A stretch of DNA of 6,864 nt from positions 1 through 6,864 of the forward strand of contig DAOVIU010000056.1 of NCBI GenBank assembly GCA_030673585.1. The letters run 5' to 3'. Positions within the stretch are counted from its first letter, which is position 1; every line of letters begins with the position of its first letter. The DNA is from Pseudomonadota bacterium (GTDB lineage Bacteria; Desulfobacterota; BSN033; G020346125). Shown one piece after another: positions 2,502-5,911 of the stretch. The notes beneath the pieces are model-generated. The model was not told the DNA's origin and did not search any database. It saw only the letters and a program-made list of their open reading frames with translations. The translations under genes and the position numbers were made by a program.

Positions 2502-4058
2502 TTATGGATTATACACTACCTCACCGCTCCAGGGATCGCGCCACTTGAAGTCCACCCCTATCCTGTCGCGATTGCCGAACCCCCCACAATCAACGTTATT
2601 GCTGAAGCTCATCCAATCAAGACCGCTCCAGGCTGGGGACCTGGGAGATGGCGTACAGATGCTCTTGAAGAGCAGCACACAGGTCGCAATCGTCCCATCC
2701 GGCTTCTTGCACCAATACGTGCCCAGCCTTCCCCTGAAGGGAAGCCACTGCAGGTCGTGCCACGCGGGCACGTGTTCCCAGTGATCGAACCACTCCCAAC
2801 CGTGGGCGTTGATGTACCCATCCCCGTCGGTATCAGGTGACCGCTTAATCTCCCCCATATTCACCAGGTAATCGTACCTGAAAAACGTCTTGTAGAGCCA
2901 CGGATCGGGGTCATAGTCAACATCGTCGGTATAAACGTCACCTGCGACGTTAATCTCATACAGCGGTTCCCCGAAGTTATAAGAACCGTGGGCGTTACGC
3001 GCAATCCACACGTGAAGATGCGTCCGCGACTCGTCGTAGCCCTGGTGCGGTGGAATCTCCATGGTGTGGCCCGAGGCATAAGAACCCCACCAGCACTCAC
3101 TGGCCGGGAACTGTCGGCCTCCCTCGTGCTTGTAGAAGTTTACCCTCCGGGGCACGAATCGATCCCCTGCCCTCTCAACCTCGATGGACACGTGCTCGAA
3201 ATCGCCTTCGTGCCAGGTGGACTCACTCGTCTGCTCCCTCGTGTCGTTCATGGTCATGAAATACCAGTATTGCACGTAGTAATAGGAGCCCTTCTTATAG
3301 ACGTGGTAGTAGATGGGCCGTTCCCCCGGAAGCTCCTCCTTATATCGCTCGGCATTGTCCATGTCCCACCGGTAGTAGGCCGACCCCTGTCCGTATCCCC
3401 ACGAGTCCCACTGATAGCCGTACCGCCAGTGGAATGTCGAATACTTGGTAATCCGGTTGTCGGGGTATTGCTGGCCGCGAATATTAAATACCCTTCGTGA
3501 CGCCCACAGGACCCGGTCGACGTCAGCCAACCCCTCCGGCTGCAGGTCATCGGGATGCCGATGAAGCACGGGCTTGAACTTCTCCGCAATCGCCTCCTCA
3601 ATACAGAGTTCGGCGTAGCCGTCGACAGTTGCCCTCGCTAAATTGGAATATGTCAGATGACGCCCGCCGCCGGCATCGCGCCAGTTGAGGACGGCCCTCA
3701 GCGTATAGGTATGGCCGCTCCTTAGGTTGTTTCTCGTTGGACCACAGACGATATCGCCGTGAATATTGTCCCATCGATAGCTCGGGGAACGGGCGGTTTC
3801 GTCGGTGTACCACGTCCGGCCTCCGTCGGGGGAATACTGAGTGGTTACTGACGCCGCTTTTCGCCAGGGGGCATCCTGAAGCTTGAGGTCGATGTAGTAC
3901 TCCATCCTCAGCCCGTACCCGTAGGGAATGGGAAACTTCTGGGCGTAAGCCTTGTAAATTGTGATCTTCGGCCGCGGTGGAGGCGGCTTCGCGGCGCCAT
4001 CCCCGCAAACGAGCACCACGGCCAGACATCCAATGAGAAAAAGACTCAATAATCTCAT
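2502..4058 (-). CDS. Secreted Vps62/DUF946-like protein
   Basis: The product is 518 residues. ATG 4058 is preferred over TTG 4061 because AAGGAG lies 6 nt before the ATG. Residues 1 to about 23 form a signal peptide (MRLLSLFLIGCLAVVLV), followed by a proline linker (PPPPRP), so the protein is exported. Residues about 30-145 look like a beta-sandwich-type N-terminal region. The rest resembles the Vps62/DUF946 family. KFKPVLHRHPDD (160-171) marks its start, a Tyr/Trp-rich segment follows, then HEGDFEH (283-289), which corresponds to the family's H.GDWE motif and recalls the GHRHDWE motif of NPP1 toxins. HLHVWIARNAHGSY (about 347-360) then matches the family's conserved His-rich strand. DTDGDG (about 408-413) looks like a calcium-binding loop. 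The His/Asp/Glu pattern suggests a metal site, but no reaction is known. The gene lies upstream of the riboswitch-controlled gene on the same strand, with 234 bp between them. It could also be a distinct secreted family sharing only this core. Confidence 0.7.
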   Translation of the reverse strand: MRLLSLFLIGCLAVVLVCGDGAAKPPPPRPKITIYKAYAQKFPIPYGYGLRMEYYIDLKLQDAPWRKAASVTTQYSPDGGRTWYTDETARSPSYRWDNIHGDIVCGPTRNNLRSGHTYTLRAVLNWRDAGGGRHLTYSNLARATVDGYAELCIEEAIAEKFKPVLHRHPDDLQPEGLADVDRVLWASRRVFNIRGQQYPDNRITKYSTFHWRYGYQWDSWGYGQGSAYYRWDMDNAERYKEELPGERPIYYHVYKKGSYYYVQYWYFMTMNDTREQTSESTWHEGDFEHVSIEVERAGDRFVPRRVNFYKHEGGRQFPASECWWGSYASGHTMEIPPHQGYDESRTHLHVWIARNAHGSYNFGEPLYEINVAGDVYTDDVDYDPDPWLYKTFFRYDYLVNMGEIKRSPDTDGDGYINAHGWEWFDHWEHVPAWHDLQWLPFRGRLGTYWCKKPDGTIATCVLLFKSICTPSPRSPAWSGLDWMSFSNNVDCGGFGNRDRIGVDFKWRDPWSGEVVYNP

Positions 4059-4080
4059 CAAGGTCTCCTTTCAGGATTAA

Positions 4081-4200
4081 CCCCCGCCCCGGTTTTCAGG
4101 AACCCCCGCCCCTTTAACCGGTTCCCCCGCTCCTTTTATAATTCCCCCCCGCCCCGTTAACCGTTTCCCCCGCCCTTTTTATAATTCCCCCCGCCCCTTT
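4081..4200. repeat. Six G/C-run direct repeats, 21-22 bp apart
   Basis: The motif CCCCCGCCCC (or a near match) starts at 4081, 4103, 4124, 4146, 4167 and 4188, giving spacings of 22, 21, 22, 21 and 21 bp, close to two helical turns. The spacers alternate between a GTTAACC-like type (units 2 and 4) and a TTTTATAATT type (units 3 and 5). This makes a higher-order repeat of about 43 bp. The minus strand therefore carries six blocks like GGGGCGGGGG, directly upstream of the ribosome site of the gene starting at 4058. The array could be operator sites, a G-quadruplex-forming leader or a simple expanded repeat. Confidence 0.85.
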
Positions 4201-4557
4201 TATTGGATTCAGTCGCCCATTTGGGAACCCTCATCTTAAACGCTCCCTCTCATCTCTCATGTCATCCTCGTATTCCACGTGTTTTGTGGCCGAACCTTCT
4301 GCCCCACTGCTGGCATCATCGACGGCAACTTTCAAGGTGAGGCAAACCCAACGCAACTTCTATGCCAGGTCCAGATCGTAGACGAAGCTGGAACTGAAAT
4401 CAATGATAATCCCCTGAAATCATTGGATAATCTATTCGTTCCCTTTCATTTCCAACGGGATTTGTCTGCAGCGCGCTCCTCGGAAAATGTGCCAAAAGGG
4501 ACAAACAAAGTCGGGAAAACTCGGGTTTTTTAAGGAATATCCTTTTATTTTCACGGG
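4201..4557. other. Non-coding stretch between divergent transcription units
   Basis: No convincing gene was found here. The longest plus-strand frame (GTG 4279 to 4533) has no ribosome site and a composition unlike a protein. The stretch must hold the minus-strand promoter of the gene starting at 4058, unless that lies inside the C-rich repeats, but no clear hexamer pair stands out. It contains two short direct repeats listed separately. It also has a small palindrome AAGGAATATCCTT (4532-4544) followed by T-rich sequence, which could be a weak terminator. Confidence 0.5.
4395..4432. repeat. Short tandem direct repeat, 20-bp period
   Basis: TGAAATCAATGATAATC (4395-4411) is followed after CCC by TGAAATCATTGGATAATC (4415-4432). 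The two copies differ by one substitution and one inserted base. They lie in the non-coding stretch and have no obvious function; a paired regulator site or slippage product are both possible. Confidence 0.7.
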
Positions 4558-4741: not shown

Positions 4742-5224
4742 ATGGCGAGAAGGAAGAAAAAGAAGAGCCCCGATGTATCTCAAGACAGAACAGCTGCGAA
4801 GAGGAAAAAAATGATAACAAATCCCTTCCTGTGGATTGGAGGCCTAATCGTGGTGGCCATCATTTCTTTTGCTCTATTGGGGCACATACCTTTTATTGGC
4901 ACCGGAAGCAAAAGGGGTAAGTCCTTCTCCGTCCAGGGAGGTGAAACGCGCCCTGTGCTCAATCCTTCACTGTTTGAAGGCATGGCCAGAACAGCCTACG
5001 CTGCGGCGAAGAAATATCCAGAGGTAATGGACCAGTTGTACTGCTATTGCACATGCGATGAACCGCCTTTTAATCACAAAAGCCTGTTGAGTTGTTTTAC
5101 CGATAATCATGGTAAGGGCTGACTGCTCTGTCAGAAGGAGGCCTTGAGGGCAGCCCAGCTTTACGAAAAAGGTAAGACCGTCGAAGAGATAAAGAGAACA
5201 ATTGACGAGGAATTCGGTCGCTAG
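4742..5224 (+). CDS. Membrane-anchored PCYCGC-motif protein, probable selenoprotein (Sec127)
   Basis: Start ATG 4742 has AGGTGA 3 nt upstream. The frame meets TGA at codon 127 (5120-5122) but continues for 33 more codons to TAG 5222-5224, giving 160 residues if TGA is read as selenocysteine. Residues 1-23 are strongly basic. A transmembrane helix spans about 28-47 (NPFLWIGGLIVVAIISFALL), so the rest should face the periplasm or exterior. The C-terminal part matches the PCYCGC-motif family: C101-Y-C103-T-C105, NHKSLLSCF (C118), then DNHGKG-U127-LL-C130, then GKTVEEIKRTIDEEFG. Family members carry HGxxCxxC followed by a GK..KEIR..ID tail, so U127 replaces the first Cys and makes a UxxC redox motif. 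The conserved tail after the TGA argues against a true stop. The function of the family is not established; a thiol-redox or metal-binding role is inferred. The TlpA-like gene starts 99 bp downstream. If Sec is not inserted, a truncated 126-residue protein results. Confidence 0.85.
5120..5153 (+). promoter_or_regulatory. SECIS-like hairpin following the in-frame TGA
   Basis: Directly after TGA (5120-5122), CTGCTCT (5123-5129) pairs over 7 bp with AGGGCAG (5147-5153), including one T-G pair. Above it, AAGG (5135-5138) pairs with CCTT (5142-5145) around a three-base loop AGG. The stem is broken by a 5'-side bulge containing a U (5131), and C5132-G5146 can also pair. The apical loop begins 16 nt after the TGA and has G as its second base. 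This agrees with the usual bacterial SECIS layout of loop distance and early loop G. The upper stem is short, so energy calculation matters. Confidence 0.6.
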
Positions 5225-5323: not shown

Positions 5324-5911
5324 ATGCGTATTTTCGGCATAAGGAGATGGAGAGAGATACTTATCGGGTTGGTGCTGATAGCAGTATCTGTTGGCTTTTA
5401 CTCTATTTCCCTCAAAAACGATCAGCCCGACTCGGAGGTACAAGATATCCGGTCGGGTTTCAAGCCTAGCGTGGGAGATCGCGCGCCAGATTTCACCCTT
5501 CCAACCTTAGCGGGTAATCACGTTCGCCTATCGAATTACAGGGGAAAACTGGTCTTTTTGAACTTCTGGGCCACCTGGTGTCCCCCTTGCCGCCAAGAAA
5601 TGCCCTCTATGGAATCCCTGTATCAAAGGTTGAAAGGGCGAGATTTCGAGATGCTTGCGGTCAGTATCGATAGCAAAGGAGCGTATCAACTGAAATCTTT
5701 TGTCGCCACATATGCCCTCACATTTACCGTGCTTCTTGATCCCCATAAAAAGGTATACAGGCTTTATGGCCTCACTGGAGTACCCGAGACCTTCATTATC
5801 GGTAAGAACGGGGATATTCTCTTGAAGATCATAGGGTCTCGAAACTGGATGAAAAAGCGATGGCTCGATTACTTTGGTCGAATCACTGGGAAGAGTTCTC
5901 TATTACGGTGA
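5324..5911 (+). CDS. TlpA/ResA-like thiol-disulfide oxidoreductase
   Basis: The product is 195 residues, a usual length for membrane-anchored TlpA/ResA/CcmG-type thioredoxins. A basic start (RIFGIRRWRE) precedes one transmembrane helix (about 12-29), so the thioredoxin domain should face the periplasm. The domain begins VGDRAPDFTLPTLAG (50-64), carries the active site FWATWC86-PP-C89 with RQEMPS after it, and has the cis-proline loop GVPETF (Pro154). Such proteins reduce disulfides in apo-cytochrome c or other exported proteins. A stop at 5318-5320 sits just before the ATG, so no upstream start is possible. The ribosome site is poor, because TAAAGG abuts the ATG; the ATT codon at 5330 would have better spacing but is a rare start. 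It lies 99 bp after the probable selenoprotein, with no clear terminator between, so the two are likely co-transcribed and may work together. Confidence 0.92.
   Translation: MRIFGIRRWREILIGLVLIAVSVGFYSISLKNDQPDSEVQDIRSGFKPSVGDRAPDFTLPTLAGNHVRLSNYRGKLVFLNFWATWCPPCRQEMPSMESLYQRLKGRDFEMLAVSIDSKGAYQLKSFVATYALTFTVLLDPHKKVYRLYGLTGVPETFIIGKNGDILLKIIGSRNWMKKRWLDYFGRITGKSSLLR

Follow-up and report, generated by a model that had tools for sequence, protein, structure and literature searches.

The gene at 4742-5224 very probably encodes a genuine selenoprotein of the OS_HP4/CYCxC family, in which the in-frame UGA at 5120-5122 would be decoded as selenocysteine (Sec). It lies within the window, by which we mean the whole stretch of 6,864 nucleotides that was analysed. 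This reading, drawn from sequence comparison, is well supported because TGA and Cys codons exchange at this position among relatives, the tail encoded after the TGA is conserved, synonymous codon choice is constrained directly after it, and Sec machinery is found in most of the relatives' genomes. The claim of a selenoprotein, made in a first-pass annotation of this DNA, is upheld on these four grounds. The gene is nonetheless one more member of an already listed bacterial selenoprotein family, not a new kind. The features discussed below are as follows.

4742-5224, plus strand: coding sequence of the predicted selenoprotein of the PCYCGC/CYCxC family (160 residues, Sec127), closed by TAG at 5222-5224.
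4823-4879, plus strand: predicted N-terminal membrane helix, residues 28-46, from an AlphaFold2 helix and a hydrophobic stretch in the sequence.
5042-5056, plus strand: CYCxC motif, residues 101-105 (CYCTC); alignments A1 and A3 both have an invariant Cys at columns 101, 103 and 105.
5120-5122, plus strand: UGA codon for the putative Sec127, which opens the UxxC motif that Cys130 closes; of 42 loci, 37 have TGA here and 5 a Cys codon.
5137-5155, plus strand: candidate SECIS hairpin (RNAalifold), GG..GCCT / GGGC..CC, with TGA 5145-5147 in the apical loop, overlapping the coding tail.
5324-5911, plus strand: downstream gene for a TlpA/ResA-like thiol-disulfide oxidoreductase (CPPC), PF00578 121.8 bits, stop TGA.

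The ATG at 4742, with a ribosome-site-like stretch (GAGGTG) visible just 5′ of it, opens a frame of 160 codons whose sole internal stop codon is the TGA at codon 127. HGKG precedes this codon and LLC follows it, which agrees with the earlier placement of the TGA at the first position of UxxC. A further 33 codons separate the TGA from the TAG, and this tail aligns to that of the relatives, as had been claimed. Besides CYCTC and U127-L-L-C130, the domain holds a further cysteine, Cys118. AlphaFold2, given 50 sequences, models residues 61-160 as a confident helical domain (ten-residue means of 95-99). Its confidence is low across the predicted helix 28-46 (ten-residue block means of 58, 78 and 67), which follows a Lys/Arg-rich N-terminus.

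The protein belongs to the PCYCGC-motif family, as the first-pass annotation had assigned it, with a match of 40.8 bits to PF13798 (Pfam cut-off 25). It also matches the NCBIfam model NF041379 (OS_HP4_CYCXC), which falls within PF13798, and its 125.9 bits exceed the cut-off of 90. This match covers residues 69-158 and crosses the TGA, which was entered as Cys for the scoring. NCBIfam names the entry 'CYCXC family (seleno)protein'. Table 1 of a 2026 review (PMC13188914) lists a 'CYCXC family protein (hypothetical protein OS_HP4)' with PF13798, UxxC and one Sec, and the source given for that row is its reference 60, a 2007 Olavius algarvensis paper. OS_HP4 with UxxC is also listed in a 2022 review (PMC9312934). 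Since NF041379 and these two reviews already hold the OS_HP4/CYCxC selenoprotein family, the suggestion that the gene represents a new Sec form of the PCYCGC family has to be dropped.

Like the OS_HP4 row, the window protein combines CYCxC and UxxC with a single predicted Sec, encoded by one in-frame TGA, and it carries the same domain; apart from being another sequence from another organism, it differs in nothing substantial. A Parageobacillus lipoprotein (PF13798; PMC13068155) shares the Pfam family and the conserved cysteines, including a CYC-type motif. It is described in that source with Cys only and with a lipobox Cys, whereas the window protein has a putative Sec and a predicted transmembrane helix. 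Plasmid genes from Burkholderia, Paraburkholderia and Paenibacillus (18 records) also contain PF13798 and are likened to the window gene at the family level only.

For the comparison at the DNA level, we used 42 loci from species genomes that encode relatives of the window protein. The codon at column 127 is TGA in 37 of them and TGC or TGT in the other five, and in all 37 TGA loci the frame runs on and closes at an offset of 33 to 36 codons, in L014 across a second TGA at offset 3. Because 37 loci have the TGA, it is extremely unlikely that the codon is a sequencing error for TGT or TGC, or that the gene is a decaying pseudogene. Such faults are a general possibility in metagenome assemblies and nothing more, whereas here the TGA recurs at the same codon in genomes of other species and the window frame has no other stop.

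The closest species genome found (G001) encodes a protein 61-63% identical to that of the window. Seven additional loci from the class of G001 have TGA at column 127 as well; six of the 13 loci from this class (L043, which is L001 again, and L048, L049, L052, L053 and L055) had no match in the motif scan, which took each sequence in its given orientation alone, and stand outside the counts. Of 230 genomes from the class of G014, 82 have a match, and 83 of the 88 listed matches hold at least one TGA within the matched stretch, the placement of which is verified only where the genome belongs to the first 42 loci.

An organism-wide reassignment of UGA to Trp or Gly (codes 4 or 25), with no selenocysteine involved, would read the same frame through, for it is open under any such code. 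We consider this scarcely credible, because the gene at 5324-5911 ends at a TGA, close to the end of its L001 homologue, and because the residue that stands in for TGA at column 127 is Cys in those five loci, never Trp or Gly.

The protein search returned 153 homologues, of which 118 among the 120 listed stop at the residue just before column 127. Homologues ending at this position had been regarded as an argument against Sec, and they are what would be seen if the UGA were a true stop, with a functional protein of 126 residues and a tail that is either a remnant or a leaky read-through product. However, the tail is conserved in both sequence and length across relatives, and column 130 is Cys in every row of alignment A3, with TGA read as Cys (L014, described below, is thus also counted as Cys). 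In addition, Cys is found at column 127, with the protein running on, in the five loci and in the database protein P0052, the only one among the 120 matches listed to have Cys there and continue past it. Together with the synonymous constraint directly after codon 127, this makes a true stop very improbable. Homologues with Cys at this column, which the first-pass annotation had named as something to look for, do exist, in genomes and in the database alike.

Since 37 of the 42 loci show TGA followed by a conserved tail, the short database entries are most simply explained as gene calls cut at the UGA. One partial entry, P0002, which is 97% identical over 76% of the query, stops four residues before the usual end (among the 120 matches listed). 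The alignments used here comprise 32 of 121 proteins (A1), 29 of the 39 UxxC TGA genes (A2) and 50 rows with L016 left out (A3). The window gene thus adds one member to a selenoprotein family in which coding by TGA prevails in the loci sampled and nearly all of the database entries listed are truncated at that codon; the function and the redox partner are therefore worth a direct test.

The remaining interest lies in that function and in possible variants of the motif. In L014 (CP070737.1), the gene at 9953-10405 has a TGA at 10304 and a second TGA three codons later, at both places of CxxC. Its protein scores 125.8 bits on NF041379, and it is the only row with two TGAs among the 88 matches listed in the class of G014. 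The second TGA is possibly a sequence error; alternatively, L014 may on this evidence be a UxxU form of a family that is listed with one Sec. Five Deltaproteobacteria bacterium records (L032, L034, L037, L039 and L042) have TGA, three residues and then Cys, which is UxxxC as opposed to the listed UxxC.

Next, we examined the RNA after the UGA. Synonymous codon identity was computed over genes placed in three groups (39 UxxC TGA genes, 5 Cys genes and 6 others). The genes were lined up without gaps, which puts some distant members out of step 5′ of the CYCxC region. In the 39 UxxC TGA genes, identity at codons +5, +6, +7, +9 and +11 is 1.00, 0.95, 0.76, 0.82 and 0.94, where codon usage leads one to expect 0.54, 0.50, 0.27, 0.24 and 0.28, respectively. 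It is raised at +2 too (0.57 compared to 0.26 expected). Most other columns, which serve as the control given that the 39 genes are related and their kinship is uncorrected, lie nearer expectation, with some upstream columns (for example -10, -13, -16, -19 and -32) in excess by about 0.2 and up to 0.25. Constraint of this kind just after the TGA is what an embedded SECIS element would be expected to leave.

Folding energies point the same way. Over codons +1 to +12, 38 of the 39 UxxC TGA genes have a lower energy than their synonymous versions have on average (mean z -1.22), compared to 25, 21 and 20 of 39 for three other stretches of the same genes. The Cys genes, used as a control over the same codons, give 3 of 5 negative values and a mean z of -0.43, five genes being too few for a firm contrast. 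The value for the window gene itself is -0.52.

The RNAalifold hairpin at 5137-5155 is based on 29 sequences and has six pairs. In the alignment, 98.3% of cells are paired, compared to 28-78% when the partners are slid. Covariation is limited to one pair changed on both sides in two sequences (2 cells), and there is little of it because the sequence itself is conserved. A hairpin scan with an ad hoc score gives a mean of -10.4 for the 45 TGA genes, 37 of which have a qualifying hairpin; it finds one in 3 of 5 Cys genes as well, where the mean is -5.7, and the groups are too unequal for this contrast to carry weight.

The window RNA folded alone is unexceptional: in the proposed fold check around 5120-5165, three stretches that overlap within 5117-5170 show no gain in stability over their shuffles (z of 0.71, -0.07 and 0.95), which on its own would suit a UGA that is a true stop. 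An Rfam search around the TGA returned a chance-level row only. The earlier description of a SECIS-like hairpin thus stands in part: the comparison supports a hairpin at 5137-5155, and its first base is the 15th after the TGA, not the next base as had been stated.

Most of the relatives' genomes encode Sec machinery. Over the 42 genomes, selA exceeds the cut-off in 38, selB in 37 and tRNA-Sec in 32, while the same searches over 14 named control genomes give selB in 2, selA in 1 and tRNA-Sec in 5. In a set of 25 genomes that takes in the class of G001, 23 have selA over the cut-off, and tRNA-Sec exceeds it in 17 of 24. G001 itself, the draft genome of the closest relative, has selB over the cut-off and neither selA nor tRNA-Sec.

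The tRNA-Sec stays under the cut-off in 10 of the 42 relatives' genomes. A smaller search of the single-chromosome genomes G009, G010 and G014 again found none over the cut-off, and ARAGORN names all tRNA-Sec candidates in these three genomes as other tRNAs. Nor did the surroundings of selA and selB in these genomes yield one. A DNA search of 12 genomes with the tRNA-Sec of a relative recovered full copies only in G013, the source of the query, and in G025. The genome G010 contains the 5′ part of a tRNA-Sec, which runs into a masked stretch, and the rest of the genomes gave partial or weak matches. G009 and G014 contain selA, selB and TGA genes, yet no tRNA-Sec in them reaches the Rfam cut-off.

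On the selenoprotein reading, the UGA at 5120-5122 would direct insertion of Sec, aided by the candidate SECIS hairpin a few codons 3′ of it. The resulting protein of 160 residues would be anchored in the membrane at its N-terminus and would carry CYCxC, a further Cys and UxxC within a compact helical domain. Because of the motif and the predicted anchor, we infer an exported redox protein: it probably sits outside the cytoplasm, with the selenol of Sec127 and Cys130 acting as a thiol/selenol-disulfide redox pair. A TlpA/ResA-like thioredoxin, for instance the product of the adjacent gene, might also re-reduce the Sec127-Cys130 pair, a partnership that we put forward tentatively. The redox role as a whole is deduced from the motif and the neighbour only.

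The product of the downstream gene at 5324-5911 scores 132 bits on the ResA model NF002854, under the cut-off of 170, and is 63% identical over 150 residues to that of a gene beside L001. When four window proteins were sought in the 42 loci, the TlpA-like one alone recurred. A homologue of it lies at most 1.3 kb from the selenoprotein gene in 8 of the 42 loci, with the same strand in L001 only (the loci differ in length). Among 10 proteins scanned, from 10 loci (135 neighbouring ORFs listed), the neighbours differ. A conserved operon as a general rule was rejected on the basis of these variable neighbours and of the 8 of 42 loci.

We also considered a relation to CcmH. The N-terminal domain of CcmH (PDB 2kw0) resembles the window protein in being a helical domain with a CxxC pair (UxxC in the window protein) and a similar last helix. 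It is the first PDB row in Foldseek, as a weak match (E 1.1, prob 0.66). In VIA-align, where the CcmH match is weak, a designed protein outranks this domain. A search of the PDB with the window sequence gave no relative up to E 1, and even with E allowed to reach 10 the window protein had no match to CcmH PF03918 (the filters drop most weak matches). Profile comparison with CcmH yields a probability of 38% using 5 CcmH sequences and 6% using 12.

One protein links the two domains. Locus L105 (1186-2100, minus strand, in G014) encodes a cytochrome c domain (PF13442, 29.7 bits), CcmH (42.2) and PCYCGC (35.4) in a single protein, with Cys in place of Sec in its CYCxC-family domain. A full-length match to this fusion is found in 1 of 395 genomes, G014 itself. 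Membership in CcmH, the lead given by Foldseek and VIA-align, was rejected in view of the missing PF03918 match, the profile probabilities and the single genome with the fusion; the resemblance stays a lead. The shape resemblance, the TlpA-like neighbour and the L105 fusion led us to a broader proposal. According to it, CYCxC selenoproteins would be selenol versions of CcmH-like exported thiol oxidoreductases and would have a TlpA/CcmG-like thioredoxin as their partner, the maturation of cytochrome c being one example of such a role, with UxxU possible in L014; we regard it as speculative and rather unlikely.

Finally, the window contains other features. The minus-strand frame at 2502-4061, of 519 residues, matches nothing in Pfam with an E of 0.001 or below. 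Just upstream of it lies a C-rich tandem repeat (4081-4203) with units of ~21 and ~43 bases, CCCCCGCCCC... The minus-strand gene at 3-2267 encodes an NHL-repeat beta-propeller protein, and a c-di-GMP-I riboswitch (53.7 bits, cut-off 35) is located just upstream of it at 2318-2406 on the same strand.
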